In this document: positions 253 through 13,154 of the stretch, piece by piece
Layout of the letters: the number at the start of each line of letters is the position of its first letter
How positions within the stretch are numbered: the stretch's first letter is position 1
Program-made: the position numbers and the translations under genes
IMG/VR virus record: IMGVR_UViG_3300036820_000627
Span: 1-25,100 of that record
Strand: one strand, 5' to 3'
DNA: 25,100 nucleotides
Origin: a virus
The notes under the pieces: generated by a model
Seen by the model: only the letters and a program-made list of their open reading frames with translations
What the model was told of the DNA's origin: nothing
Databases searched by the model: none

Positions 253-279
253 GCACGCCCATAGCGTGAGCACCCTGAG

Positions 280-354
280 TCGGCCCGGCGCGATTCGAAC
301 GCGCACCGTCTGACTTAGGAGGTCAGTGCCCTATCCGGGTTGGACCACAGGCCG
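280..354 (-). tRNA. tRNA-Arg(CCT)
   Basis: The cloverleaf has a 7-bp acceptor stem (281-287 with 348-354), a T arm with loop TTCGAAT, and anticodon loop CTCCTAA, giving anticodon CCT. The discriminator is A and no CCA is encoded. It is the last tRNA of the array in transcript order. Confidence 0.9.
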
Positions 355-355
355 G

Positions 356-430
356 TGGAGACGCACCCCGGAGTCGAACCGGGCCCCGGCGGTTTTGCGG
401 ACCGCCTCCCGCACCAGCGAGACGTGCGTC
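356..430 (-). tRNA. tRNA-Cys(GCA), C33, encoded CCA
   Basis: Acceptor 360-366 pairs fully with 424-430. The discriminator is U73, the Cys identity base, and CCA is encoded at 356-358. The anticodon loop is CCGCAAA, so the anticodon is GCA and position 33 is C instead of U. One base separates it from tRNA-Arg(CCT). Confidence 0.88.
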
Positions 431-431
431 G

Positions 432-505
432 CGCTCCCAGCAGGATTCGAACCTGCGATCTCTGCCTTCGGAGGGCAGTGTCCTATCCGCCTAGACCATG
501 AGAGC
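432..505 (-). tRNA. tRNA-Arg(CCG)
   Basis: Acceptor 433-439 pairs with 499-505 (one G-U). The T arm is perfect at 440-456 and the anticodon loop CTCCGAA gives CCG. The discriminator is G and CCA is not encoded. Confidence 0.92.
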
Positions 506-510
506 TTGCG

Positions 511-588
511 TGCGCCGGGGAGGACTCGAACCTCCGTGTGGGGTACCTGATTTACAGTCAGGCGCGGTCGCCACTGCGCCACCGACGC
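511..588 (-). tRNA. tRNA-Tyr(GTA)
   Basis: Acceptor 512-518 pairs with 582-588, T arm at 519-535, anticodon loop CTGTAAA giving GTA, discriminator A. The variable region is about 10 nt, intermediate between class I and the usual bacterial class II Tyr arm. Confidence 0.9.
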
Positions 589-592
589 TTGG

Positions 593-667
593 GGTGACCG
601 ACGAGACTCGCACTCGCTTTCACCAGATTCACAGTCTGGGCCCTCGACAGCTTCGGGCTCAGCCACC
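593..667 (-). tRNA. tRNA-His(GTG)
   Basis: The anticodon loop CTGTGAA gives GTG. The extra 5' G (G-1, base 667) faces C73 (base 593), the diagnostic His feature. The acceptor stem 594-600/660-666 is fully paired with wobbles. The T loop is TGCGAGT, a variant of the consensus. Confidence 0.9.
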
Positions 668-668
668 G

Positions 669-741
669 TAGCCAGCCAGGGAGTTGAACCCCGTTATCCG
701 CGGTGTGGACGCGGCGCTCTGAACCGTTGAGCTAGCCAGCC
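669..741 (-). tRNA. tRNA-Val(CAC), C33
   Basis: Acceptor 670-676 pairs with 735-741 using three G-U pairs. The D arm is canonical (GCTC...GAGC). Anticodon stem CCGCG/CGCGG closes loop TCCACAC, giving CAC with C33. The discriminator is A. Confidence 0.85.
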
Positions 742-799
742 TTGAAAAACTTCCCCGGCCGAAACTTCACGCTCCGGCCTCCTCCGGGACCTATGAGGT

Positions 800-931
800 A
801 TGGACAAAGAACTAGTCATCCGATACCTGATCGACCTGGCCCTGGCCGCCGATGACGACGGCTGGTGCCCCCGATCTTGCCGAGCGCGCTCGGAGGGACT
901 CGAACCCCCAACCCCTAGATCCGTAATCTAG
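800..931 (+). CDS. Possible 43-residue ORF reading antisense into tRNA-Arg(ACG)
   Basis: ATG at 800 opens a 43-codon frame whose first 25 residues (MDKELVIRYLIDLALAADDD onward) look protein-like. It then runs antisense through tRNA-Arg(ACG) and stops with TAG at 929-931 inside the tRNA. A purine-rich GAGGT sits directly against the start, too close for a normal ribosome binding site. It fills the longest gap in this part of the array (742-884). It resembles the arrangement of the homing endonuclease at 2965-3900, so it may be a gene remnant that acquired a tRNA-derived 3' end. No function is recognisable and it may not be expressed. Confidence 0.3.
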   Translation: MDKELVIRYLIDLALAADDDGWCPRSCRARSEGLEPPTPRSVI

Positions 932-957
932 TGCTCTGTCCGTTGAGCTACGGGCGC
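885..957 (-). tRNA. tRNA-Arg(ACG)
   Basis: The anticodon loop TTACGGA gives ACG, which would be deaminated to ICG. The D arm is of Arg type (GCTCAACGGACAGAGC). Acceptor 886-892 pairs with 951-957 with one C-A mismatch. The discriminator is G. Confidence 0.87.
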
Positions 958-958
958 A

Positions 959-1034
959 TGGTGGCCGCTGATGGTCTCGAACCATCCGCCTCCAGGTTGT
1001 CGTCCTGACGCTCTGCCAACTGAGCTAAGCGACC
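959..1034 (-). tRNA. tRNA-Val(GAC), C33, encoded CCA
   Basis: Acceptor 963-969 pairs with 1028-1034, the T arm is perfect at 970-986, the discriminator is A, and CCA is encoded at 959-961. The anticodon loop ACGACAA gives GAC with C33. One base separates it from tRNA-Arg(ACG). Confidence 0.85.
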
Positions 1035-1136
1035 GAGCATGAGGCGGCTGACCGGGGAACCCCTCATGCGTGTCCTGCTTCGTGCTCGCGGTGCAGGCAA
1101 CCGCAGGGGCGAACCCCCTCGTTTCCCGGACTAGCG

Positions 1137-1211
1137 CGGACCTGACGGGATTTGAACCCGCGACCTCCACCTTGACAGGGTGGCGAGCACTCCAGACTGC
1201 TCTACAGGACC
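1137..1211 (-). tRNA. tRNA-Asp(GTC)
   Basis: The anticodon loop CTGTCAA gives GTC and the discriminator is G73 as expected for Asp. Acceptor 1138-1144 pairs with 1205-1211 with one T-T mismatch. The T loop is TTCAAAT. The preceding spacer (1035-1136) contains GC-rich short hairpins and no gene I can support. Confidence 0.9.
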
Positions 1212-1293
1212 ATACGGCCAGCTTAGCGGATTTCGGACGGCCGTTCCCTACTTCTCCGCTAGGCACCCCCCGGTTAGGGCGCTGACCTGCCTA

Positions 1294-1329
1294 GGCCAAG
1301 CCAGCCGGTTTCTCGCTTAGCGCTTGGCC
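1294..1329. other. Inverted repeat in tRNA spacer
   Basis: A 7-bp inverted repeat (ggccaag 1294-1300, cttggcc 1323-1329) lies in the 125-base spacer between tRNA-Asn and tRNA-Asp. The rest of 1212-1336 shows nothing recognisable. It may be a processing hairpin or a weak terminator. Confidence 0.35.
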
Positions 1330-1336
1330 ACGCCTG

Positions 1337-1410
1337 CTCTCGCGGAAGGATTCGAACCTTCACCGTACTGATTAACAGTCAGCCGTCCTGCCTGGTTAGA
1401 CCACGCGAGA
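1337..1410 (-). tRNA. tRNA-Asn(GTT)
   Basis: A perfect 7-bp acceptor (1338-1344/1404-1410), a perfect T arm, anticodon loop CTGTTAA giving GTT, and discriminator G73. Confidence 0.92.
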
Positions 1411-1416
1411 TCAAGA

Positions 1417-1457
1417 TGCCGCGCTTTGCCGTCTGTTACCGGTCCTGGCGCGCGGCA
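1417..1457. other. Inverted repeat in tRNA spacer
   Basis: An 8-bp perfect inverted repeat (tgccgcgc 1417-1424 with gcgcggca 1450-1457) fills the spacer between tRNA-fMet and tRNA-Asn. It is a candidate processing stem-loop in the array transcript. Confidence 0.4.
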
Positions 1458-1465
1458 AGCCTTCG

Positions 1466-1540
1466 TGGCGGGGGCGGGATTCGAACCCGCGTTTTCCGGG
1501 TTATGGGCCCGGGCTGGTACCTAGCTCCAGTCACCCCGCA
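1466..1540 (-). tRNA. Initiator-like tRNA-fMet(CAT), C33
   Basis: The anticodon arm has the three consecutive G-C pairs typical of bacterial initiators (GGG/CCC), and position 1-72 is unpaired (T-C), the other initiator hallmark. The loop is CCCATAA, giving CAT with C33. The discriminator is A. A phage-borne initiator tRNA is uncommon. The C33 is unusual for a bacterial initiator. Confidence 0.85.
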
Positions 1541-1541
1541 G

Positions 1542-1613
1542 TAGCCCCAGACGGTTCCGACCCGTCTTCTCCTGCTTGAAAGGCAAGTGGCCTAGCCATT
1601 GGCCGATGGGGCC
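1542..1613 (-). tRNA. tRNA-Glu(TTC)
   Basis: Acceptor 1543-1549 pairs with 1607-1613. The anticodon loop CTTTCAA gives TTC. The T loop is GTCGGAA, which departs from the TTCRANY consensus at positions 54-56. One base separates it from tRNA-fMet. Confidence 0.82.
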
Positions 1614-1745
1614 TCAGGAGCGAGCCGAATACCTTGCCTAGGGGCTCGGCCCGCTCCACAGTGCCTGATATGTGCGCCGAAGGCCGGCTTCCCGCCCGCA
1701 GGCATACGGGCGGTACTCACGCACTGGGACAGGCTTGCCCGGCCG

Positions 1746-1817
1746 TAGCCCGTACGAGATTTGAACTCGTAGCCTCTGGGCTGAGAACCCAGCGATCTGC
1801 CGTTGATCTAACGGGCC
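1746..1817 (-). tRNA. tRNA-Glu(CTC)
   Basis: Acceptor 1747-1753 pairs with 1811-1817, the T arm is perfect, and anticodon loop TTCTCAG gives CTC. The spacer 1614-1745 has GC-rich hairpins (for example cgagcc/ggctcg) and no supported gene. Confidence 0.9.
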
Positions 1818-2368
1818 GTGTGGCACACTGTCTTCTGCCGGGAGCCGGCCCCGGACTCGCACCTGGGGCTGGCGGGAGTGCGAGTGGTGCGCCCGGTACG
1901 AGCGGGTCCCGCTGGAGGCGCTACCGTACCTCCTGCCGCCGGTCCAGCATCCGGAGGTACGGCGGGACCCGCTCGTTTAGCGGCTTGGCGGCGTACGCGG
2001 ACCCGATCCGCTTCCGTTTCCGGGGCGCTACGCCAGGCACCCGGCACATGCAGGCGTCCCTGCTTCATGCAAGGGGATTGCCCTGCGGGGTGTGCCGCCC
2101 CGGCGCGCCATGAGGGACTCGAACCCCCGGCCATCAGGGTAGAAACCTGTCGCTCTGTCCTCTGAGCTAATGGCGCTAGCAGGTGTTCATCACGGGACCA
2201 GTAGCGCTGGAGGCCTATCGCGCACCCCCATCCGCCATAGCGGTGCCACTGGCCGCTCCAGTAGCCGGGGATCCGGTCGAGTGCCTCATCGAGCAGCCAG
2301 ACGGCCTCGGCCCGCCACCTGAGCGGGTCGCCGCGCCAGTCCCGGTACCTGGCCAGGATGCGTCTCAT
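1808..2368 (-). CDS. Hypothetical ORF reading through tRNA-Arg(TCT), probably degraded
   Basis: The ORF opens with ATG at 2368. Its first ~64 residues look like a real protein (MRRILARYRDWRGDPLRWRA, then a Trp-rich stretch ending RYWSRDEHL). From about 2178 downward the frame enters tRNA-Arg(TCT) in sense orientation and then low-complexity Pro/Ala/Arg sequence up to 1808. This suggests that only the 2178-2368 part is an old gene and that its 3' end has been lost to tRNA insertion or rearrangement. A CATACT box lies six bases before the ATG. No family is recognised. The functional end is uncertain. Confidence 0.35.
   Translation of the reverse strand: MRRILARYRDWRGDPLRWRAEAVWLLDEALDRIPGYWSGQWHRYGGWGCAIGLQRYWSRDEHLLAPLAQRTERQVSTLMAGGSSPSWRAGAAHPAGQSPCMKQGRLHVPGAWRSAPETEADRVRVRRQAAKRAGPAVPPDAGPAAGGTVAPPAGPARTGRTTRTPASPRCESGAGSRQKTVCHTAR
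1898..1976. other. Long two-step hairpin in array spacer
   Basis: A perfect 15-bp inverted repeat (1898-1912 with 1962-1976) encloses a second nine-bp stem (1925-1933 with 1953-1961) and a 19-base loop. It sits in the 286-base tRNA-free stretch 1818-2103. It may be a structured RNA, a processing signal or a recombination site. Nothing else in that stretch is recognisable. Confidence 0.5.
2104..2176 (-). tRNA. tRNA-Arg(TCT)
   Basis: A perfect 7-bp acceptor (2105-2111/2170-2176), anticodon loop TTTCTAC giving TCT, T loop TTCGAGT, discriminator G. Confidence 0.9.
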
Positions 2369-2387
2369 GCGGCCAGTATGGCAGAGG

Positions 2388-2461
2388 TGGGCCGTCAGGG
2401 GTTCGAACCCTGGACGAACGCGGGTTAAAAGCCCGCCGCTCTACCGCTGAGCTAACGGCCC
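2388..2461 (-). tRNA. tRNA-Lys(TTT)
   Basis: A perfect acceptor (2389-2395/2455-2461), a perfect T arm, anticodon loop CTTTTAA giving TTT, and discriminator A. Confidence 0.93.
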
Positions 2462-2515
2462 CTGCGCTGTATTCGCAGGGCCTGTTTAATTCTCATCGTG
2501 TTTGCCTCTTTCCCG

Positions 2516-2590
2516 TGGGGCGGGCAGGGCTTGAACCTGCGCGTTTCCTGCTTATAAGACAGGCGCCTTTACCAGCTTGGCCACCGCCCC
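2516..2590 (-). tRNA. tRNA-Ile(TAT)
   Basis: A perfect 7-bp acceptor (2517-2523/2584-2590) and anticodon loop CTTATAA giving TAT, which reads AUA directly. Most bacteria instead read AUA with a lysidine-modified CAT tRNA, so this gene frees the phage from host TilS for this codon. The discriminator is A. Confidence 0.9.
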
Positions 2591-2591
2591 G

Positions 2592-2669
2592 TGGTAGCGA
2601 GAGCCAGCATCGAACTGGCGGCCTCTGCGTTATGAGCGCAGCGCTCTGAACCAACTGAGCTATCTCGCC
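2592..2669 (-). tRNA. tRNA-Met(CAT), encoded CCA
   Basis: Acceptor 2596-2602 pairs with 2663-2669, canonical D arm (GCTCAGTTGGTTCAGAGC), anticodon loop CTCATAA. The 5' GGCGAGA and U33 fit elongator Met rather than initiator. CCA is encoded at 2592-2594. One base from tRNA-Ile(TAT). Confidence 0.9.
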
Positions 2670-2674
2670 ATGGT

Positions 2675-2746
2675 TGGCCACCGCGGGATCGAACCGCGCA
2701 ATACCTGCGTATCAGACAGGCCCCTTCGACCAGCTGGGTCGTGGCC
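2675..2746 (-). tRNA. tRNA-Ile(GAT)
   Basis: Anticodon loop CTGATAC gives GAT, T arm perfect at 2683-2699. The acceptor pairs at six of seven positions (G-G at 7-66). The discriminator is A. Confidence 0.87.
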
Positions 2747-2748
2747 AG

Positions 2749-2834
2749 CGGATAGCGGAGGTGTTGAGCCCCAGAGCCTCGCGACTCCCGCCCGGGTTCA
2801 AGCCGGGGCCGGCCACCGGGCCGGTTCACCATCC
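2749..2834 (-). tRNA. tRNA-Ser(TGA)
   Basis: This is a class II tRNA found by folding. Acceptor 2750-2756 pairs with 2828-2834, the anticodon arm 2791-2807 has a perfect 5-bp stem with loop CTTGAAC (TGA), there is a 17-nt variable arm with a GAG/CTC stem, and the discriminator is G73 as in Ser. The T loop CTCAACA and a 4-bp T stem are degenerate, so scanners may miss it. Confidence 0.8.
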
Positions 2835-2842
2835 ATGATTTG

Positions 2843-2929
2843 CGGAGAGGGCGGGAGTCGGACCCGCAAGGGCCGGAAAGCCTCACCGGTTTTCGAAACC
2901 GGCTCCGTCGCCAATCGGATAGCCCCTCC
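2843..2929 (-). tRNA. tRNA-Ser(CGA)
   Basis: Class II. Acceptor 2844-2850/2923-2929, T arm 2851-2867, long variable arm, anticodon loop TTCGAAA giving CGA, discriminator G73. Confidence 0.92.
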
Positions 2930-2952
2930 AGGAAAATGACGGCACGTAGCGG

Positions 2953-2964
2953 TAAAATATCGAT
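2953..2964 (+). promoter_or_regulatory. Leaderless-type -10 box for the homing endonuclease
   Basis: TAAAAT at 2953-2958, then six bases, then GTG at 2965. No Shine-Dalgarno precedes the start. Confidence 0.55.
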
Positions 2965-3900
2965 GTGAGCAAACGGCTAGCACAACCGGAAAGCCGGGCA
3001 TGCGAGGACTGCTCGGCGTCGTTCATGACGAGCTGGTCGCAGCGCTTGTGCAATCCTTGCAGATACGGACGTGCCGCCCGTTCGGTCTGCAATACCTGCG
3101 GCCGGAAGACGGGACAGACCGGCCGGCGCCAGTGCGGCCCCTGCCGCTACGGCACCCCTCCCGACCTCCGCGCCATGTCACCGTCCGAACTGGCGTGGCT
3201 CGCCGGCATCATTGAAGGCGAGGGTACTTTCGGCCGGGGAAGGCGGCCCGGCGGCCAGGTGCGCGTCGTCATGACCGACCGGGACATAATCCGCCGCCCG
3301 TGGTCCCTCACCGGGTTGGGCCTTATTCATAACCGTGGACGCCGGGCCGCTCACCATAAGACGGTCTGGGAATGGGCCGTGACCCGCAGGGAAAACGTCT
3401 GCACGCTGGCAGGGGAGTTGGCGCCGCTGCTACTCCATCGACGACGGTCGGCGATCGAGGCGATCCTGCACGCTGGCGGAACCACCCTGTCGCCGCCTGT
3501 CGAATTTCAACCGGGGACCGGCGAGGCGTGGGCGTGGGCGTGGGTTGCTGGCCTCCTTGAGGGCGAAGGCTGGATCAGCCCGGCGCCAAATTCGATCCGG
3601 CAGGGAGTCGCGGTCGCCGTCGAATCGACCGACTTCGACACGATAGAACGGCTTGCCGCACTTACCCAGGTCGGCCGCATCGCGGACCTAAAGCGCCGCT
3701 CGGCCAGCCACAAGCCGAGCCGGCGATGGGGCGTGCGCAGCCACGCGGACGCCCGCTTGGTCTTGGCCGCGACCCTTCCCTGGCTTGGGGAGCGGCGAAC
3801 GATCCGCGCTCGTTACGTCCTGAACCGGATTGGTGCGGAGAGTGGGAGATTCGAACTCCCGAAGGTGTTACCCTTCCTGCTTTCCGGGCAGGTGCCATAG
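2965..3900 (+). CDS. LAGLIDADG homing endonuclease, free-standing in the tRNA array
   Basis: This 311-residue protein has two LAGLIDADG-type motifs, LAWLAGIIEGEG at residues 77-88 and WVAGLLEGEG at 193-202. It is therefore a monomeric double-motif homing endonuclease that would cut a long asymmetric site. The acidic position is E in both motifs (GEG), a known variant. Residues 13-60 carry four CxxC pairs (CEDC, CNPC, CNTC, CGPC), which look like two zinc ribbons added at the N-terminus. The GTG start is chosen because a TAAAAT box lies six bases upstream. It is on the opposite strand to all tRNAs. From residue 291 the frame is the exact antisense of tRNA-Ser(GGA) and it stops inside that tRNA, so the 3' end seems to have been acquired at insertion. 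It may promote mobility of tRNA segments between phages (inference). Confidence 0.85.
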   Translation: MSKRLAQPESRACEDCSASFMTSWSQRLCNPCRYGRAARSVCNTCGRKTGQTGRRQCGPCRYGTPPDLRAMSPSELAWLAGIIEGEGTFGRGRRPGGQVRVVMTDRDIIRRPWSLTGLGLIHNRGRRAAHHKTVWEWAVTRRENVCTLAGELAPLLLHRRRSAIEAILHAGGTTLSPPVEFQPGTGEAWAWAWVAGLLEGEGWISPAPNSIRQGVAVAVESTDFDTIERLAALTQVGRIADLKRRSASHKPSRRWGVRSHADARLVLAATLPWLGERRTIRARYVLNRIGAESGRFELPKVLPFLLSGQVP

Positions 3901-3918
3901 CCGCTAGGCGAACTCTCC
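3836..3918 (-). tRNA. tRNA-Ser(GGA), C33, overlapped by the endonuclease gene
   Basis: Class II with perfect acceptor (3837-3843/3912-3918), perfect T arm, variable arm GAAGGTGTTACCCTT read on the plus strand, anticodon loop CCGGAAA giving GGA with C33, and discriminator G73. The endonuclease CDS overlaps 65 bases of it on the other strand. Confidence 0.92.
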
Positions 3919-3923
3919 AGGGG

Positions 3924-4008
3924 CGGAAGGCGGAGCAATCGAAGCCCAAGGTGTTACCCTCGCATCGCTTAGCGGGCGAGCCCGGTGCGCCTGTCCGGTG
4001 CGCCTTCC
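3924..4008 (-). tRNA. tRNA-Ser(GCT), C33
   Basis: Class II found by folding. Acceptor 3925-3931 pairs perfectly with 4002-4008, the T loop is TTCGATT on a 4-bp stem, anticodon loop CCGCTAA gives GCT with C33 on a 4-bp stem, and the discriminator is G73. A 13-base piece of its variable arm (3948-3960) is identical to tRNA-Ser(GGA) (3862-3874), so the two probably arose by duplication. Confidence 0.8.
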
Positions 4009-4020
4009 ATCAGAGCGGTG

Positions 4021-4078
4021 GGCGGGGACAGGCGAGCCGCCCGGTACGCGCAGACCGGTACGGTCGTGATTCCCCGCC
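4021..4078. other. Inverted repeat in tRNA spacer
   Basis: An 8-bp inverted repeat (ggcgggga 4021-4028 with tccccgcc 4071-4078) spans most of the spacer between tRNA-Leu(CAG) and tRNA-Ser(GCT). Confidence 0.4.
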
Positions 4079-4086
4079 TCACTGCG

Positions 4087-4169
4087 TGCGCCGGGAGGGA
4101 GTCGAACCCTCACGCCACTAAGGACATACGGGCCTGGGCCGTACGCGGCTTCCATTACGCCACCAGCGC
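4087..4169 (-). tRNA. tRNA-Leu(CAG), C33
   Basis: Class II. Acceptor 4088-4094/4163-4169, perfect T arm, long variable arm, anticodon loop CCCAGGC giving CAG with C33, discriminator A as expected for Leu. Confidence 0.9.
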
Positions 4170-4170
4170 A

Positions 4171-4235
4171 TGATGCTCGCGTAGCTGAGCTACTTGTCCG
4201 CCTGCCGGGGACGGAATCGGGCCGGCGAGCGCGGC
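4171..4235 (-). tRNA. Degenerate tRNA-like element
   Basis: On the minus strand a T-arm-like hairpin (4208-4224, loop CCCGATT) lies upstream of a canonical D-arm sequence (TAGCTC, eight bases, GAGC). No anticodon arm can be placed, and the D-arm part runs straight into the 5' end of tRNA-Leu(CAG). GCTCGC/GCGAGC (4225-4230 with 4175-4180) also pair. This could be a decayed tRNA or a second, less intact permuted tRNA. I do not assign an amino acid. Confidence 0.3.
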
Positions 4236-4238
4236 CAT

Positions 4239-4326
4239 GAGAAATGCGGGCAGCTTCCCTCCGGAGGGTGACACCGCCAAAGCGCTGCCCAGCACCAGGA
4301 CCTACGGCCCATGACCCGCATTTCTC
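4239..4326. ncRNA. Candidate structured RNA of unknown family
   Basis: A perfect 12-bp outer stem (4239-4250 with 4315-4326) encloses a 7-bp stem (4248-4254 with 4284-4290, sharing three bases with the outer stem) and a perfect 12-base palindrome (4257-4268). Total span is 88 bases, tRNA-sized, but there is no T-loop or anticodon arm. It ends three bases from tRNA-Gly(GCC). Strand and function are unknown. Confidence 0.45.
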
Positions 4327-4328
4327 CG

Positions 4329-4402
4329 AGCGGCTAGCGGGATTCGAACCCGCGACCCTCACCTTGGCAAGGTGATGCTCTAAACCCCTGAGCTACAACC
4401 GC
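4329..4402 (-). tRNA. tRNA-Gly(GCC)
   Basis: Acceptor 4330-4336/4396-4402 with wobbles, perfect T arm, anticodon loop TTGCCAA giving GCC, discriminator U73 as in Gly. Confidence 0.92.
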
Positions 4403-4406
4403 ATGG

Positions 4407-4484
4407 TCACCGTTAGCCCCGGCATTACCCGGGTACTGGACGGCACCCGGCTGGCCAGCCGGGTGCCGCAGCGAGTCACGGTGA
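4407..4484. other. Palindrome-containing hairpin in tRNA spacer
   Basis: A perfect 28-base palindrome (4441-4468) is nested in a 7-bp outer repeat (4407-4413 with 4478-4484). It fills the 97-base spacer between tRNA-Gly(CCC) and tRNA-Gly(GCC). A perfect 14-bp stem with no loop would extrude readily in DNA and is a plausible recombination or cleavage site. Confidence 0.5.
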
Positions 4485-4499
4485 ACAACATCGCTAGCG

Positions 4500-4571
4500 A
4501 GCGGACGACGGGGATCGAACCCGCCTCTTCACCTTGGGAGGGTGACGCGCTGCCGTCTGCGCCACGTCCGC
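4500..4571 (-). tRNA. tRNA-Gly(CCC)
   Basis: A perfect 7-bp acceptor (4501-4507/4565-4571), anticodon loop CTCCCAA giving CCC, discriminator U73. Confidence 0.92.
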
Positions 4572-4575
4572 ACTG

Positions 4576-4648
4576 AGCCCCGACCCCGGTTCGAACGGGG
4601 GACCCTCGCCTTACCATGGCGATACTCTGCCGGCTGAGCTACCGGGGC
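4576..4648 (-). tRNA. tRNA-Thr(GGT)
   Basis: Acceptor 4577-4583/4642-4648, T loop TTCGAAC, anticodon loop ATGGTAA giving GGT, discriminator U73 as in the two other Thr tRNAs here. Confidence 0.92.
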
Positions 4649-4719
4649 TGGGCAGGCTTTTCTGCCGACTCCAACGGTCAGGGGCCTGCTTGACCCTGGT
4701 GACGGTTAACCGCCGCTCG

Positions 4720-4790
4720 CTGGGCGCCAAGGACTCGAACCTCAACTAACTGGGCCAAAACCAGTCGGGCTGCCTTTACCCCACCGCCCA
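4720..4790 (-). tRNA. tRNA-Gln(TTG)
   Basis: Acceptor 4721-4727 pairs with 4784-4790 except G-G at the base. The U1-A72 pair and G73 fit Gln. Anticodon loop TTTTGGC gives TTG. Confidence 0.9.
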
Positions 4791-4794
4791 TCAG

Positions 4795-4867
4795 AGCCGC
4801 CTACCGGCCTCGAACCGATCGCCTGCCCTTTACAAGAGGGCCGCTCTGCCAGATGAGCTAAGGCGGC
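4795..4867 (-). tRNA. tRNA-Thr(TGT)
   Basis: A perfect acceptor (4796-4802/4861-4867), anticodon loop CTTGTAA giving TGT, T loop TTCGAGG, discriminator U. Confidence 0.92.
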
Positions 4868-4873
4868 ATTGAG

Positions 4874-4959
4874 TGCGCCCGACAGGATTTGAACCTGCGT
4901 AGCCCTCGCGGACCACATGGACCTCGACCATGCGCGTATCCCTATTCCGCCACGGGCGC
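4874..4959 (-). tRNA. tRNA-Leu(GAG), C33
   Basis: Class II. Perfect acceptor (4875-4881/4953-4959), long variable arm, anticodon stem CATGG/CCATG with loop TCGAGGT giving GAG and C33, discriminator A. Confidence 0.9.
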
Positions 4960-4960
4960 G

Positions 4961-5036
4961 TGGAGCCTCCGGGCCGACTTGAACGGCCTGCCTGTTCCTT
5001 ACGAGGGAACCGCTCTGCCAGGTGAGCTACAGAGGC
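4961..5036 (-). tRNA. tRNA-Thr(CGT), encoded CCA
   Basis: Acceptor 4965-4971/5030-5036, perfect T arm, anticodon loop CTCGTAA giving CGT, discriminator U, CCA encoded at 4961-4963. One base from tRNA-Leu(GAG). Confidence 0.92.
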
Positions 5037-5040
5037 ATGG

Positions 5041-5112
5041 CTCCCGCTCAAGGACTCGAACCTCAAACCCCCTGGACCAGAACCAGGTGCTCTGCCATTG
5101 AGCTAAGCGGGA
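5041..5112 (-). tRNA. tRNA-Gln(CTG)
   Basis: A perfect acceptor with U1-A72 (5042-5048/5106-5112), anticodon loop TTCTGGT giving CTG, G73. The T arm is identical to that of tRNA-Gln(TTG). Confidence 0.92.
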
Positions 5113-5125
5113 TCATTGTCTTTCG

Positions 5126-5200
5126 TAGGCGGCCCCGGACTCGAACCGGGAAACGGCGCATTTTGAGTGCGCCAGCTTTACCGATTAGCGTTAGCCACCC
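5126..5200 (-). tRNA. tRNA with Leu anticodon CAA but a class I variable loop
   Basis: Acceptor 5127-5133 pairs with 5194-5200, perfect T arm 5134-5150, anticodon stem GCGCA/TGCGC with loop CTCAAAA giving CAA, discriminator A. The variable region is only five bases (5151-5155), whereas bacterial Leu tRNAs have a long arm, as the two other Leu genes here do. The D stem is only about three pairs. Either an atypical Leu tRNA or a tRNA charged with another amino acid. Confidence 0.75.
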
Positions 5201-5201
5201 G

Positions 5202-5273
5202 TGCGCCACGAGGGACTTGAACCCCCAGCCAAAAGATTAAGAGTCTTCTGCTCTGCCATTGAGCTAGCGGCGC
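5202..5273 (-). tRNA. tRNA-Lys(CTT)
   Basis: Acceptor 5203-5209/5267-5273, anticodon loop CTCTTAA giving CTT, discriminator A. One base from the previous tRNA. Confidence 0.9.
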
Positions 5274-5305
5274 AAGATTAGAACTGCGCGGACCACTGGG
5301 CGACG

Positions 5306-5485
5306 TTATAGGTGGACGCACACCAGCATCGCGTCCGCCAGGTGCCCCGGTACGGCCTGGCTGGTGTCGATGAACACCGGCTCGGAGCATCGCGAGCATT
5401 CCCTGACCGCGAGTTCTTCATATTCGGGGACCTGCATGTCCGCGACGCGCCACACCAGCCGCACGCCGCGCTCAGTGTGGGACAT
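5306..5485 (-). CDS. Small CxxC hypothetical protein inside the tRNA array
   Basis: This 59-residue ORF runs from ATG at 5485 to TAA at 5306-5308. The sequence begins MSHTERGVRLVWRVADMQVP and includes CSRC with a preceding acidic stretch and a later cysteine near the C-terminus, so metal binding is possible. The start is supported by TAGACT seven bases upstream, a leaderless-type promoter. It fills the 234-base gap between tRNA-Gly(TCC) and tRNA-Lys(CTT) and lies on the same strand as the tRNAs. No family is recognised. Confidence 0.65.
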   Translation of the reverse strand: MSHTERGVRLVWRVADMQVPEYEELAVRECSRCSEPVFIDTSQAVPGHLADAMLVCVHL

Positions 5486-5498
5486 GGTGCCCAGTCTA
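5486..5498 (-). promoter_or_regulatory. Leaderless-type -10 box for the 5306-5485 gene
   Basis: On the minus strand TAGACT followed by seven bases precedes ATG at 5485. Confidence 0.5.
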
Positions 5499-5507
5499 AG
5501 CCTAAAG

Positions 5508-5578
5508 AGCGGATGAGGAGAATCGGACTCCTGTCCTTAGTTTGGAAGACTACTGCTCTGCCATTGAGCTACATCCGC
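5508..5578 (-). tRNA. tRNA-Gly(TCC)
   Basis: A perfect acceptor (5509-5515/5572-5578), perfect T arm with loop TCCGATT, anticodon loop CTTCCAA giving TCC on a 4-bp stem, U73. Completes the Gly set. Confidence 0.88.
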
Positions 5579-5583
5579 ATGGG

Positions 5584-5655
5584 TAGGTCCCGCAGGTATC
5601 GAGCCTGCCTACGCCGGGCTTCAACCGGCTGCTAATCCGTCTCAGCTAGAGACCC
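5584..5655 (-). tRNA. tRNA-Phe(GAA)
   Basis: Acceptor 5585-5591/5649-5655 with wobbles, perfect T stem (loop CTCGATA), anticodon loop TTGAAGC giving GAA, A73. Confidence 0.9.
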
Positions 5656-5659
5656 ATGG

Positions 5660-5731
5660 TCGGGAACCTCAGAGTCGAACTGAGTTTGCCCTGCTCCCAA
5701 AGCAGGCGGGTTGCCGTCTCCCTCGCTCCCG
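5660..5731 (-). tRNA. tRNA-Pro(TGG)
   Basis: Acceptor 5661-5667/5725-5731 with the C1-G72 pair typical of bacterial Pro, anticodon loop TTTGGGA giving TGG, A73. Confidence 0.92.
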
Positions 5732-5732
5732 G

Positions 5733-5808
5733 TCGGGCTGGCCGGATTCGAACCGGCGGCCTCCTCGCCCCCAGCGAGGCGCGCTGAGCCAAACTGCGCT
5801 ACAGCCCG
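5733..5808 (-). tRNA. tRNA-Pro(GGG)
   Basis: A perfect acceptor with C1-G72 (5734-5740/5802-5808), perfect T arm, anticodon loop CTGGGGG giving GGG. It follows the permuted tRNA directly. Confidence 0.92.
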
Positions 5809-5810
5809 TT

Positions 5811-5907
5811 AACGGGGAGTACTCTATCCGCTGAGCTACCAGGGGCCAGGACCGGAGTCCCTTATTTTGCCCCCGGGCGGGATTCGAACCCGCGACCTCT
5901 CCCCTCG
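5811..5907 (-). tRNA. Circularly permuted tRNA-Arg, probable anticodon TCG
   Basis: On the minus strand the 3' half comes first (5907-5869). It starts CGAGGGGAG, then a 5-base variable loop, a perfect T arm (5877-5893, loop TTCGAAT) and the 3' acceptor strand CCGGGGG. After a 22-base linker (5868-5847) comes the 5' half (5846-5811): acceptor CCCCTGG, TA, D arm GCTC...GAGT and anticodon 5' stem CTCCC. The halves pair at all seven acceptor positions (plus G-1:C73) and all five anticodon-stem positions. Joining at the nick gives loop CGTCGAG, so anticodon TCG, the one Arg codon-box reader missing from the array; position 33 would be G. The Arg-type D loop agrees. The linker holds a GGAC-TCCG-GTCC hairpin of UNCG type. 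Confidence 0.6.
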
Positions 5908-5980
5908 TCGGGACCCCCGGAGCCGAACCGGGTATCTCCTGTTCCCGAAACAGGCGGATTAACCGTCTTCCTCGGTCCCG
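5908..5980 (-). tRNA. tRNA-Pro(CGG)
   Basis: A perfect acceptor with C1-G72 (5909-5915/5974-5980), perfect T stem, anticodon loop TTCGGGA giving CGG, A73. Its 3' end (5908) abuts the permuted 3' half with no spacer. Confidence 0.92.
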
Positions 5981-6076
5981 AACGGTGCCAGGAGCACGGG
6001 TACCTCGCGCCCTGGCCACCTACACACTTCTGCCGCTCGGCTTCGCCTCCGTGTGCTAGGGATGCGCCTGGCGTAC

Positions 6077-6152
6077 TGGCACCCCGGCGAGTCCGAATTG
6101 AACGGACGACAGGTCTTGGGGACCTGCTGTGATGCCTGCGCCTACCCAGGGC
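6077..6152 (-). tRNA. Aberrant tRNA with anticodon CCA (Trp-like), encoded CCA
   Basis: The T arm is perfect (6091-6107, loop TTCAATT). The anticodon stem CAGGT/ACCTG closes loop CCCCAAG (CCA, C33). Acceptor GCCCTGG pairs with 3' CCGGGGT, followed by G73 and encoded CCA (6077-6079). There are three extra bases between T arm and acceptor, only two variable-loop bases, and no recognisable D arm. A canonical tRNA-Trp lies at 6434-6505, so this is a second, degenerate or specialised one. Confidence 0.55.
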
Positions 6153-6164
6153 CGTATACCAGAG

Positions 6165-6236
6165 TGGAGAAGCCGGGAATCGAACCCGGTGCGGCGACGC
6201 TTGCGGGGCGTGCCCGGTACCTTACCTGTCATCCCC
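6165..6236 (-). tRNA. tRNA-Ala(CGC), C33
   Basis: Acceptor 6166-6172 pairs at six of seven positions with 6230-6236, perfect T arm, anticodon loop CCCGCAA giving CGC with C33 on a 4-bp stem, A73. The D arm is weak (GGT/ACC). Confidence 0.75.
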
Positions 6237-6240
6237 ATTG

Positions 6241-6314
6241 TGGAGCCTAGGGGATTCGAACCCCTGACCTTTTGCATGCCATGCAAGCGCTCTACCAAGC
6301 TGAGCTAAGGCCCC
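6241..6314 (-). tRNA. tRNA-Ala(GGC)
   Basis: Acceptor 6242-6248/6308-6314, perfect T arm, anticodon loop ATGGCAT giving GGC, A73. Confidence 0.9.
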
Positions 6315-6317
6315 ACG

Positions 6318-6369
6318 GCCGACGCGGGCAATGCCGCGGCGGCACGTCGGCAGGCATGGCGGCCTGCCG
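6318..6369. other. Two adjacent hairpins in tRNA spacer
   Basis: Two overlapping 7-bp inverted repeats (6318-6324 with 6345-6351, and 6348-6354 with 6363-6369) lie between tRNA-Trp and tRNA-Ala(GGC). The rest of 6315-6433 shows nothing else I can support. Confidence 0.35.
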
Positions 6370-6433
6370 TATTGTGCTCACGCTATGGACATATCAAGTG
6401 GTACCCAGCACGTTCACCCTCAGGTGGTGCTCG

Positions 6434-6505
6434 CAGGGACGGAGAGACTCGAACTCCCGACACGCAGTTTTGGAGGCTGCTGTTCTGCCACTGAACTACG
6501 TCCCT
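6434..6505 (-). tRNA. tRNA-Trp(CCA)
   Basis: A perfect acceptor (6435-6441/6499-6505), anticodon loop CTCCAAA giving CCA, G73 as in Trp. It is the first tRNA of the array in transcript order. Confidence 0.92.
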
Positions 6506-6923: not shown

Positions 6924-7346
6924 CTAGAAATCGCCCGGCGCAACCTGAAGGCAGGTCAGGCCGAGATCCTCGCGCCACATTCTGACCACTTTTGCCCGGT
7001 CATCAAGCACGCCCTCGACTTCGTAGATCCCCAGGACTTCCCGGTCGTAGAGCTCCCGCTTCGCGATCTGGTCGGGCCGCATGTCGCCGTCCTTGCGCAT
7101 CAGCAGCGGGAACCCGCACATGCGCAGGCCCGGCTCGCAGCCGAAGTCGTGCAGCCACCCTGTGGTCGCCTCGCGGCACTGCTCCATCCGGCCGGACATG
7201 TAGATCAGGCCAGACCGGGCCGCCAGGGCGCGGGCGACGGTGATGACCGGCCCGTTCGGGGCGTCCTCGCCGACGCGGGACCAGTCGTAGGGGGAGCGGT
7301 CGCCGGCGAGCGCGAGGGTACCGTCGATGTCGACGATCCAGGTCAT
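6924..7346 (-). CDS. HAD-family polynucleotide 3'-phosphatase (T4 Pnkp phosphatase-like)
   Basis: This 140-residue protein matches the phosphatase half of phage polynucleotide kinase/phosphatase. It has the HAD nucleophile motif DIDGT (D6, D8) followed by the family's RSPYDWSRVGED segment, SGR at 51-53 (motif II), RKDGDMRPD at 84-92 and the metal-binding DDR at 115-117. It would remove 3'-phosphates or 2',3'-cyclic phosphates from nicked nucleic acid, preparing ends for ligation. No N-terminal kinase domain is present. It is the last gene of a three-gene overlapping chain (ATGA with the 7343 gene) and lies just upstream of the tRNA array on the same strand. A role in tRNA end repair is suggested by context. 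Another HAD phosphatase role is possible. Confidence 0.82.
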   Translation of the reverse strand: MTWIVDIDGTLALAGDRSPYDWSRVGEDAPNGPVITVARALAARSGLIYMSGRMEQCREATTGWLHDFGCEPGLRMCGFPLLMRKDGDMRPDQIAKRELYDREVLGIYEVEGVLDDRAKVVRMWREDLGLTCLQVAPGDF

Positions 7347-8777: not shown

Positions 8778-11700
8778 TCATCTGTCATGACTTGCGCGCA
8801 GCGCCTCCCATTCGTTCATGGCGCGCTGCGCCGCCTGCCGAACCTCTTCGGTTACCTTGACCTTCCCGCCAAAGGCAGTGCCGCGCGACCATTCGCGTAC
8901 GGCATTCACGGCGGTGGCTATGGCTTGCTGCTCGCCCATGCCCTGGTCGCGCATGAGGGCCCGCGCGGTGTTCTGGAAATAGGCGGGAAGCTGCTGGACA
9001 GTCCCGACGTGCTTGTCCGGGGTATGCCATAGCCCTTCGGTCCCGAGTGGATGGTGCACGGTGCTGACGATAGGTGTCTGTGCCGATTTCCCGGCCGCAG
9101 GGAGTGCCGGGGGAGTACCGGGGGCGATTATGCACCTGCACGCAGGATGGGCTAGCGGAGAAAGGGACCCGTTGGGAAATTTCGCCATTATCGGAATCGG
9201 GCCAGCCGCCTGGTTCTTTTTGCAAATGCCACAGACCCTGTCGTCGTTGCGCGTGACCCATTTCTTGTACGTTATGCCCGCTTTGATGTACGCGGCCAGT
9301 GTCGCCTGCCCGATCGCCCACGTGGTCTCCGACTGGGTGATCAGCAGGGCCGCGGTAAGAGAATCGAGCAGGTCCGTGATCTGCCGGGCCAGCTCGTCCT
9401 CGCCCGCCCCGTTCCGGAGCGCCTTCAGCAGCAGCTTCTCCAGCCGCTTCAGCAGGGTCCGCAGGATCCACCCGGCCCGCGTGTCCTTCCCCTCCCTGAG
9501 CATCGCGCCCAGGGCCGTGACGTCCTCGCCGATCTCGCCCCGCCCGGTGACCGCGGAGGCCGACGCCCAGCCGATCGCCCACGCCGCCCCCCACAGCGCG
9601 GACAGCACGGTGATCAGGGCAGCGGTCAGCGCAGCGGCGACCCCGGCTGCAGCAAGGAACTGGCGTGGCGCGGGCTGTGCGGATTGCTGCTGCGTCGGCG
9701 GCTGCTGCGCTTTCTGTGCCGGCCAGGCGAGCGGCGCGGGCCGGACGGCCTGCCGGTCCTTCCCCCGCCGCGCCGGGACCACGTCCGCGGGCGGCCTGCG
9801 GTGCGCGGCGTTGAGGGCAAGCCAGTCCCGCGCGAGGTTCCCGGCGTTAACTGCCGCAGCCAGCGACGCGGTGAGCGTGCGGGCATACTCGGCGGCGAGC
9901 TGGCTGTCGGAAAACCACCCCGGCCACGCCTGCCCGCCTGTACCATCGTCCCGATGGGAACCCCCGGCCCCGCGACTCGCGTCCGGGCCGGGGACCGCCG
10001 CTAGCGGGAGCCCGGGGCCAGCCGTGTTACCCCGGCTCCCGCTAGCGTGCCCCGGTCCTTTTGGGCCAGCACCACCCGCCTTGTTCGCCCGGCTGGCGCC
10101 CTGGTGGACCTGGAAGGAGTGCGTCTCCCGCCACCGGTGGTCGCCTTCCGGGACGAACCCCACATAGGCCTTCACCGGGCGGCCCAGCTTCGCGTAGGCG
10201 AGGGTGCGGTGGTGGCCGTCGACCACGTCGGCCTTACCCTCGCCGGGCTCCTGGACCATGACGACCGGGTGGGTGTGGCCAGATCCGTGCTTTATCGCCG
10301 ACGCGAACCGCTTCACCGCCCCCGGCTCGTGCGACGCCGCCCAGGAATCCTTCCCGGCGAAGTTGACCCGGTCCTGGGGCACCTCGACGGGCCCGATCCA
10401 CGTCGCGCCGGCGATCCAGCCGATGGCCTTCTCCGGGTAGTTGGCGCGCATCTGGTTGGCGACGTGCTCGGCCTCGACGGGGTTCGGGTCCGACAGGTCG
10501 GCCGCGTCCTTTGCCACCGGGCCGACGCCCAGCGGGAACCGCTCCACGTCGTCGCCGCGATGGACCGACAGGTGAGTGAACGTCACCATGGTCGCCGGGA
10601 CGGGCTCGGGGAGGTCTTCTCCCGGCTCTATGTACGCCAGGGTGACGTGCGGTGCCCATGTGGCGTGCTCGCTGGCCGACAGGTCTTCCAGGGTCCCGCG
10701 GAGCTGGCTGGCATCAGGCAGCATGACCCCGGCCCACGCCGGGACGAGCCCGTCGCTGCTGTCCGACGGGGGGAACGAGCCGATGCCCGAGACCATGCCG
10801 GACATCGGGCCCGGTGCTGACGCGGCAGCTTCCCGTGCCCGAGTGCAGGCATAGGCCCACTGCTCGTCGTCCACGTCCGGCCCGAGGTAGACGATCGTGA
10901 TGTGGTGATCGTCGACTCCGCCGGGGACGGGCTGGATAGTGCCTTCGGGCAGGTCGAGGGAAATCATGCCCGAGCGCGAGCTCAGGCTGTACCCGGCGGC
11001 TTTCCGGGCGCCTGCGCCGAGCATCCCGGCGGCGACATCGCAGGCCTCGTCGGGCGACAGGCCCTTGGTGATGTCCTCGGTGATCATCGCCAGGATGGTC
11101 CCGCTGAGCGCGCGCCGCTCCCACCCGCCCAGCTCGGCGCCCTTGCGGAGGTGGCTGCGGAGCAGGCCCAGCTCGCGTTCCGCGGCCTTGCGGGTACTCC
11201 CGTCCCGCCGCGTATTCGCGTGCGCGGCGGCCGCGCCGGAATGGGCCGGGGTCTGGCCGGCGGGCAGGGCGCGGGCGGTGCCGACCCGGGAGGCGTGGTC
11301 GGCGCGCTGGCCGTGGCCCATCGCGTTCCGCGGTCTCGTCGTCATCCCCGTGGGCGGAAGCTCGCCGGGCATCTCGCCGGTGCGGGCTCCTGGGCCCGAC
11401 GGGGACGGCATCTCCGTCGGCCGGGACGGCTTCTGGCCCTGGCCGGGCATCTGGCCGCCCGCCGTCGTCGGGTCCAGGGCGGTGAGCGGCTGGAAGCCCC
11501 CGTACTGGGTGGCCCAGCCGGGGTCCTGGGTCATCGGCAGGCCCCACGGCTCCCGGCCGAGCTCCATCCGGGCCTCGTCGATGCTGGCCAGCCCGGCGCC
11601 CACCTGCTCGACGAGCAGGCCGGTCAGCGCCTCCTCGTCCTCGTTCTCCTCCAGGCCCTCCCAGCGCCACTCCATGTCTTCCTGGTGCAGGACGTCCTGG

Positions 11701-13154
11701 ACGATGATGTCGAAGATGGCCGACTTCAGCCATTCCAGCAGGGGTACGGTCGACTTGCGCTGGTGAATGGCCTGGACGGCCTTGTTCATCATGGTCACGG
11801 TGGAGGGCGTCGTGGTGGCCGAAACGGTCGGGAGAATGCCCAGTTCCATGGGCATCACATCGAAGCTCATGCACACTTGAAGCATTACGATCTGGTCAAA
11901 CGCGTCCGCCAGAGCGGCCGGTTTCTGGGGGTCGACTTTCGAGCCGCCCGGCAGTACGATAATCTTATGCTTCCACGCCTGATCGCCCGCGATGGCGTTA
12001 AGTGCGTCCTGAAGTTCCCTTATCTGAGAAGGCGTCATATTCGCGTCGCCAGGCGACACGAAAAGGCCAGGAATTGTCCCCTCCGAAAAATAGTTCAAAG
12101 AGTACTTTTGCTTTGCAATTCCCGTCATAATGGGAATAATGGCGCGTTCTACGGCCGTGAAACCGTAAACTGTCCAAGTGCGCGGATGGCTCGGGAGATA
12201 CATAATCTGGTCGGCGCGGTATTCTGCCGCCAGCCCCTCGGCGTCGGGGAGGTCGTCGCCGAGGACCATCGTCATCAGGTCAACGCGGGGAACGCCATAC
12301 AAAAATTGCTGGAAACCTGGGTTTGGCGGCTGCGGGGTTGACCCGCGGATGTCCACGAGGGGTTTTATGAGACTTCCGTCAATCAAGTCCAGTGAGGCCA
12401 GGTTGCTGCCCAGGACTCCCTTCTGCTTGACCCGTGAGGGGTGCGGAAAGAGGCAGAGCGCGTCGGTGACGAAAATCTCCTCGGCCGCCGCGTCCATCCA
12501 GGACGAGAAGTCCCGGTACTGTGGGTCGGGCCGCCGGAAGAATTTCGTGACCTTCGCCTGCCGCTCAGCGAAATCCTTCATGGCGGCGTGATCGCCGCGC
12601 ATCGCCTTCGCGGCGTTCTTGGTGGACGCGATCTCCCAGCGGATGCCGCGGAGCTCGGCCTTGCGTAGCTCTATGCAAGCACGCGCTACCGAATAGTAAT
12701 CAGCTATGGTCCGGAGCGTGTCGAAGCTGGCCAGCTTGCCGGGGCCCTCCGTTCCCGGCATCCCCATGGGCATATTTTGAGAGATCTGGTACTGAAAACG
12801 TCTCGGCTCGGGCCGGTCTTCGCCCGGCCGGGGAGTGTCGACGGGCATAGGCTGGATCGGGGCGAGCGGCCCGAACATGCCCGAGAGGAACGTCTGCCAG
12901 TCCCGCGGCAGGGATGCCGAGCCTCCGTCATAGGCGCGGCCGGCGGTCCACTCGTTGTAAGAGGCGACCAGGGGTGACGGGCCTGGGCCTAGCGACGGAG
13001 GCGTGACGGTACTGAATCCGCCGCCGACCCCCGGCCTGGATGACGTCGCCTTGAGGGCGCGCAGGATCGCCCGCCGAGAGGGTGCAGTCAGGTGCCTCCA
13101 GGGGGGCGCGGAGATTGCCGCCCCGCTGAAGCGGAACGGCTCGGATGTGGGCAA
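8778..13154 (-). CDS. Giant portal / 2H phosphoesterase / ParB-like / MuF fusion head protein
   Basis: A 1458-residue protein, about three times the length of a normal portal. Residues ~100-540 are a phage portal (DNA-entry ring of the capsid). Residues 560-650 are a Pro/Gly-rich linker. Residues ~725-880 carry the paired 2H-phosphoesterase motifs HHIT (750) and HVTL (836), as in LigT/2'-5' RNA ligase-like cyclic phosphodiesterases. Residues ~925-1000 are a ParB/sulfiredoxin-like domain with VDGHHR at 978-983. After a low-complexity stretch, residues ~1205-1345 form a MuF-type head morphogenesis domain with CGIC (1308) and HPACRC (1336). A helical tail (1385-1455) resembles the end of other phage head proteins. 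The start is TTG 13154 with no clear ribosome binding site. The extra domains may be carried in the capsid (inference). Confidence 0.88.
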   Translation of the reverse strand: MPTSEPFRFSGAAISAPPWRHLTAPSRRAILRALKATSSRPGVGGGFSTVTPPSLGPGPSPLVASYNEWTAGRAYDGGSASLPRDWQTFLSGMFGPLAPIQPMPVDTPRPGEDRPEPRRFQYQISQNMPMGMPGTEGPGKLASFDTLRTIADYYSVARACIELRKAELRGIRWEIASTKNAAKAMRGDHAAMKDFAERQAKVTKFFRRPDPQYRDFSSWMDAAAEEIFVTDALCLFPHPSRVKQKGVLGSNLASLDLIDGSLIKPLVDIRGSTPQPPNPGFQQFLYGVPRVDLMTMVLGDDLPDAEGLAAEYRADQIMYLPSHPRTWTVYGFTAVERAIIPIMTGIAKQKYSLNYFSEGTIPGLFVSPGDANMTPSQIRELQDALNAIAGDQAWKHKIIVLPGGSKVDPQKPAALADAFDQIVMLQVCMSFDVMPMELGILPTVSATTTPSTVTMMNKAVQAIHQRKSTVPLLEWLKSAIFDIIVQDVLHQEDMEWRWEGLEENEDEEALTGLLVEQVGAGLASIDEARMELGREPWGLPMTQDPGWATQYGGFQPLTALDPTTAGGQMPGQGQKPSRPTEMPSPSGPGARTGEMPGELPPTGMTTRPRNAMGHGQRADHASRVGTARALPAGQTPAHSGAAAAHANTRRDGSTRKAAERELGLLRSHLRKGAELGGWERRALSGTILAMITEDITKGLSPDEACDVAAGMLGAGARKAAGYSLSSRSGMISLDLPEGTIQPVPGGVDDHHITIVYLGPDVDDEQWAYACTRAREAAASAPGPMSGMVSGIGSFPPSDSSDGLVPAWAGVMLPDASQLRGTLEDLSASEHATWAPHVTLAYIEPGEDLPEPVPATMVTFTHLSVHRGDDVERFPLGVGPVAKDAADLSDPNPVEAEHVANQMRANYPEKAIGWIAGATWIGPVEVPQDRVNFAGKDSWAASHEPGAVKRFASAIKHGSGHTHPVVMVQEPGEGKADVVDGHHRTLAYAKLGRPVKAYVGFVPEGDHRWRETHSFQVHQGASRANKAGGAGPKGPGHASGSRGNTAGPGLPLAAVPGPDASRGAGGSHRDDGTGGQAWPGWFSDSQLAAEYARTLTASLAAAVNAGNLARDWLALNAAHRRPPADVVPARRGKDRQAVRPAPLAWPAQKAQQPPTQQQSAQPAPRQFLAAAGVAAALTAALITVLSALWGAAWAIGWASASAVTGRGEIGEDVTALGAMLREGKDTRAGWILRTLLKRLEKLLLKALRNGAGEDELARQITDLLDSLTAALLITQSETTWAIGQATLAAYIKAGITYKKWVTRNDDRVCGICKKNQAAGPIPIMAKFPNGSLSPLAHPACRCIIAPGTPPALPAAGKSAQTPIVSTVHHPLGTEGLWHTPDKHVGTVQQLPAYFQNTARALMRDQGMGEQQAIATAVNAVREWSRGTAFGGKVKVTEEVRQAAQRAMNEWEALRASHDR

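Follow-up and report, generated by a model that had tools for sequence, protein, structure and literature searches.

The minus strand of a 25,100-nucleotide viral stretch (IMG/VR record IMGVR_UViG_3300036820_000627, positions 1 to 25,100; hereafter, the window) encodes, at positions 5809–5907, a complete tRNA elbow in circularly permuted order. We read this unit, with a probability of roughly 0.6, as a tRNA mimic of the Y-RNA type placed within a phage tRNA array; it would not decode, and its putative function lies in its elbow. The unit resembles Y RNAs more than a working tRNA, and the permuted tRNA fold known from bacterial Y RNAs also occurs, without a Ro-binding stem, inside phage tRNA arrays.

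The unit extends from the base after A73 of its upstream neighbour, tRNA-Pro(CGG) (5907–5980, minus strand), to the base preceding its downstream neighbour, tRNA-Pro(GGG) (5731–5808, minus strand); the gap between the two is 98 bases. Both belong to an array of 37 ARAGORN-called tRNA genes on the minus strand (279–6505), syntenic in related phages. Read along the minus strand, the unit opens with CGA and the 3′ strand of a basal, anticodon-type stem (GGGGAG, 5899–5904), followed by a variable loop (AGGTC, 5894–5898, with C48 at 5894), a T arm (GCGGG-TTCGAAT-CCCGC, 5877–5893), and the acceptor 3′ strand CCGGGGG with C73 (5869–5876). A 22-nt linker (5847–5868), carrying the hairpin GGGAC-UCCG-GUCCU at 5848–5861, joins the acceptor ends. 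Next come G-1 and the acceptor 5′ strand CCCCTGG (5839–5846), T8-A9 with a D arm (GCTC-AGCGGATA-GAGT, 5821–5838, including G15 and G18-G19), a single A, the 5′ strand of the basal stem (CTCCCC, 5814–5819), and a terminal GTTAA.

All stems pair: the acceptor strands match at 7/7 positions (one U-G) and, with G-1:C73, form an 8-bp helix, while the basal stem pairs at 5/5 positions, or over 6 bp counting an extra C-G. The MFE structure of 5809–5907, in which the T arm and both strands of the acceptor and basal stems are recovered, is exactly the permuted one (−46.2 kcal/mol, z = −2.5, with 3/200 shuffles equally good), and it is unchanged when both tRNA-Pro neighbours are included in the computation. 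Pairing and fold agree with the first-pass annotation that this is a single permuted tRNA-like RNA and not two unrelated fragments; on re-reading, its coordinates and base-pair counts (acceptor 7 bp plus G-1:C73, anticodon stem 5 bp), its UNCG-type linker hairpin, and the tight placement between the two tRNA-Pro genes were also right. Neither ARAGORN nor the Rfam tRNA model called a tRNA for the unit, and compact permuted units in arrays are generally missed by tRNA finders. At the junction, the outer pairing consists of the CCCG/CGGG strands of the two tRNA-Pro acceptors around a 4 × 5 internal loop, and the MFE structure places these strands inside the flanking tRNAs; no bulge-helix-bulge or other splicing junction was found at the unit, and splicing of the bulge-helix-bulge type was rejected.

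The permuted unit is not a chance arrangement and is unlikely to be a relic. T arms followed by D arms were collected outside intact tRNAs, ignoring acceptor and basal pairing in the selection, and the halves of each candidate were compared with swapped halves. Acceptor pairing reached 7/7 in 54% of own-half candidates versus 2% of swapped halves, and the basal stem reached 5/5 in 18% versus 2.6%; for neither stem did any of 5000 permutations equal the observed pairing. The window unit scores 7/7 and 5/5 in this comparison.

Searches with the portal protein, with DNA patterns, and with whole records gathered related contigs, which place the unit in a recurrent setting. The tRNA order Trp-Ala-Ala-Pro-Pro-Phe-Gly-Lys-Leu-Gln… is common to the window and to contigs G001, G002, G004, G005, and L113, and the gaps of five syntenic arrays hold 11 compact permuted units (one in the window, three each in G001, G002, and L113, and one in G004), a count in which one G002 unit (about 5525–5596) was assigned by eye and two G001 units pair fully only with a shifted T stem. 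Their ends lie within 0–8 nt of tRNA ends, and overhang lengths and loop letters vary among sister units. In the window, G001, and L113 alike, a permuted unit occupies the slot that separates Pro(CGG) from the next Pro. Although the three sequences differ, the stems persist: each comparison shows 6–10 base pairs in which both partners have changed, as the first-pass annotation had proposed to look for in related phages; the G001 and L113 units carry a few acceptor mismatches (L113 acceptor, 5/7). Similarly, G002 and L113 differ by 10 both-sided changes in the slot after Ala(GGC), eight of them within the linker hairpin. In these counts, slot homology is taken from synteny. Acceptor strands covary across permuted units, as does the Levitt pair 15–48 (8 G-C, 10 A-U, and 1 A-C among classifiable units; Fisher p = 1e-4). 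Stems maintained through both-sided changes, together with the covariation of 15–48, amount to selection for the elbow of a single molecule whose parts are encoded in permuted order. A Y-type unit at 1701–1774 (minus strand) of L107 carries T-A at 15–48, not the usual R-Y pair, and is still complementary.

Outside the compact class, many phage contigs carry permuted units of the Y type, whose basal stems are extended and whose flanks recur (TTACTTC…TAA upstream; CGTAA.TATCCG downstream). A permuted-order pattern brought in a further 38 contigs, and our own detector identified a Y-type unit in 21, one of them being the G002 contig already in the set. Genes for Rsr (TROVE) were detected in G002, G008, G009, G018, and G019, and Y-type units adjoin Ro60/Rsr genes in the first three of these. 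Unannotated Y-type units were also found in the cultured phages Blueeyedbeauty (L060, 2452–2522), Cece (L061, 10774–10847), and Zooman (L062, 9367–9439 and 9631–9701), all of which have Ro-like protein genes; in Cece and Zooman the units lie near genes annotated as ‘Ro-like RNA binding protein’, the Cece unit ~150 bases upstream of the gene. This survey points to Y-type RNAs as a common and unannotated feature of tRNA-rich phages, among them cultured phages of Streptomyces and Microbacterium. PMC12282133 cites a report of Y RNAs in mycobacteriophages (Chen et al. 2014). The 131-kb phage contig G009 has two Rsr-type genes (31950–33512 and 106949–108505), the second match containing an internal TGA.

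The first-pass annotation had named precedents only in algae and archaea, missing a bacterial family of exactly this permuted layout, YrlA, which structure comparison has described as circularly permuted relative to tRNA (PMC11472068). YrlA (RF02553; Salmonella structure, PDB 6CU1) and the unit follow one permuted order of T arm, capped acceptor stem, and D arm; both have a full elbow (T-loop and D-loop G-G), and neither has an anticodon loop. YrlA is also the best Rfam match of the unit (31.9 bits, E = 1e-5), covering only the tRNA-like module (model positions 23–85) and falling below the gathering cut-off of 69 bits; clear phage Y-type units tested likewise, including those of cultured phages, also fall under this cut-off. 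Nearly all matches of the YrlA model to ordinary tRNA junctions in the five related arrays score ≤25 bits, whereas Y-type units score ~33–50; the Y unit of G001 matches the full model at 37.9 bits. The window unit and the G001 Y-type unit share an identical 26-nt T-arm/acceptor stretch and a 19-nt acceptor/D stretch, 45 bases that include tRNA consensus. Local alignment separates Y units from tRNAs little because the linker breaks the alignment: the gapped score of the window unit to Y-type units (29) is slightly above that of the best tRNA match (25), and the Y units of L027 and L047 rank at the top, barely above ordinary tRNAs. Compact and Y-type units are related in layout and may share descent.

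Unlike YrlA, the window unit lies inside a tRNA array, with tRNA ends as its boundaries; its score falls short of the family cut-off, and it lacks the Ro-binding basal stem, for which it offers no space. Phage Y-RNA flank motifs are likewise absent, the flanks being tRNA-Pro genes. No Rsr match was found in the 25-kb window record, nor in G001, G003, G004, and G005. The window phage may carry an Rsr gene beyond the end of the record, since the record stops 278 bases past its last tRNA, Arg(CCT), short of the position corresponding to the G002 Y unit, which lies ~360 bases after Arg(CCT) and is followed by an Rsr gene.

Two other classes of permuted RNA invite comparison. In the permuted tRNA genes of Cyanidioschyzon merolae and some archaea (PMC3978253), as in the unit, the 3′ half comes first and a linker joins the acceptor ends. 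Unlike them, the unit has no bulge-helix-bulge and no sensible anticodon loop, its linker pairing is conserved, and its context is a bacterial-type phage. The two-piece (permuted) tmRNA of alphaproteobacteria and cyanobacteria is likewise bacterial; its gene joins the native ends of the RNA, which is used as two pieces without religation (PMC3978253). The unit differs from it in having a full D arm and an anticodon-type stem and in lacking a tag reading frame and pseudoknots, for which reason tmRNA was rejected; the tmRNA model matches the T arm only (18 bases, 14 bits).

Several readings of the unit compete with a Y-RNA-type mimic. The first-pass annotation saw a permuted tRNA-Arg gene, of which the permuted layout stands; the Arg identity is not supported because U33 is missing on the 5-bp stem, the discriminator is C73, and the array holds a full Arg set. 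A standard tRNA requires U33 within a 7-nt loop. Every join of the unit’s ends that gives a 7-nt loop on the 5-bp stem lacks U33, the TCG join proposed earlier carrying G33; U33 arises only with a 6-bp stem, where the anticodons are not Arg. C73 together with G-1 is a tRNA-His signature, not an Arg one, and the Arg genes called by ARAGORN (ACG, CCG, CCT, and TCT) suffice for all Arg codons by wobble rules. More generally, the unit could be a true permuted tRNA gene from which RNase P and tRNase Z excise the linker, after which CCA is added and an RNA-repair ligase seals the nicked anticodon loop to yield a decoding tRNA. The complete cloverleaf with all four stems intact, the 8-nt loop with U33 on a 6-bp stem produced by the natural ends (GTTAACGA), and sister-unit loops that would measure about 5–11 nt by our own count agree with this route, as does the presence near the array of an ORF with a PNKP-type 3′-phosphatase domain. 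By our reading, however, sister units in L027 (AACATCG, GGAAACAA) and L113 (GACGCAA) also lack U33. RtcB, T4 Rnl1, Rnl2-type ligases, and a Streptomyces-phage RNA ligase gave no match in the records searched, the Rnl1 and phage-protein searches being run without a positive control. Moreover, as judged from sequence, the linker is probably retained in the RNA, because the pairing of its hairpin is conserved in one orthologous pair, the long-linker units in the Ala slot of G002 and L113, which is unexpected for an excised spacer. Taken with the missing U33 and a C73 unfit for Arg, these points make a decoding tRNA very improbable.

It is unlikely that the unit is a non-functional leftover of array rearrangement, such as a tandem tRNA duplication stripped of its outer halves. 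tRNA arrays rearrange often, and some sister units are imperfect, as in the L113 Pro slot, but the window unit has no broken pair, conservation of the slot extends to three phages, among which base pairs have changed on both sides, and a tertiary pair covaries across permuted units. We give little credence, too, to a processing spacer whose permuted elbow merely recruits RNase P, tRNase Z, or RNase E to cut the neighbouring tRNAs: the ends of compact units do lie next to tRNA ends, yet most array gaps have no permuted unit although the tRNAs are equally close there, and the likeness to Ro-associated Y RNAs would go unexplained.

As a Y-RNA-type mimic, the unit would be transcribed together with the tRNA array and its ends would be set by the processing of its neighbours, with tRNase Z cutting after A73 of tRNA-Pro(CGG) and RNase P before tRNA-Pro(GGG). 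These ends would fall in the open ‘anticodon’ end, while the linker hairpin would stay in place and cap the acceptor stem. The released RNA would be a capped permuted elbow and acceptor arm, as in the YrlA effector domain, with no decoding capacity, and would most likely engage elbow-recognizing proteins such as PNPase, TruB or Dus enzymes, or processing enzymes, serving as a decoy or scaffold during infection. In reviews of YrlA, Rsr is said to bind the basal stem and PNPase the tRNA-like domain, which DusA and TruB modify (PMC8394870); competitive inhibition of an anticodon nuclease by the tRNA-like domain has also been suggested (PMC7790460). By extension, we tentatively entertain the possibility that large phages hold a class of Ro-independent permuted tRNA mimics in their tRNA arrays, freed by ordinary tRNA processing and countering host enzymes or defences directed at tRNA, in the role of elbow decoys or scaffolds. 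The question raised is what a phage gains from RNAs that are tRNA-like to every elbow-reading enzyme and yet do not decode.

The distribution of compact units was also explored in other directions. A degenerate pattern of the unit had no match in the bacterial genome contigs scanned, and BLASTN searches of cultured phages with the array and the G001 Y region returned single-tRNA matches only, or none. In the PNKP relatives L057 and L059, which have tRNA arrays and Rsr genes, the detector used found no permuted unit. Matches to group II introns were at chance level (E = 0.17) and were rejected.

Other features of the window deserve mention. The PNKP-type ORF (6924–7346, minus strand; PF25109, 150 bits) lies ~0.4 kb upstream of the tRNA array and is a probable RNA-repair gene; its presence fits a tRNA-repairing phage and proves nothing about the permuted unit. 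A 1458-aa ORF (8778–13154, minus strand) combines phage portal and Mu F-like domains with a weak 2H (2′-5′ RNA ligase-like) domain that has HxT-type motifs and falls below the cut-off (E = 0.0016). Two stretches of the array missed by ARAGORN look tRNA-like by eye: 589–667 (minus strand), between Val and Tyr, is a likely tRNA-His(GTG), and the Ala-Pro gap at 5981–6239 (minus strand) holds two atypical tRNA-like sequences whose loops carry C33. On the opposite strand, a LAGLIDADG-type ORF (2965–3900, plus strand) separates tRNA-Ser(cga) from tRNA-Ser(gga) and overlaps the latter with its end.
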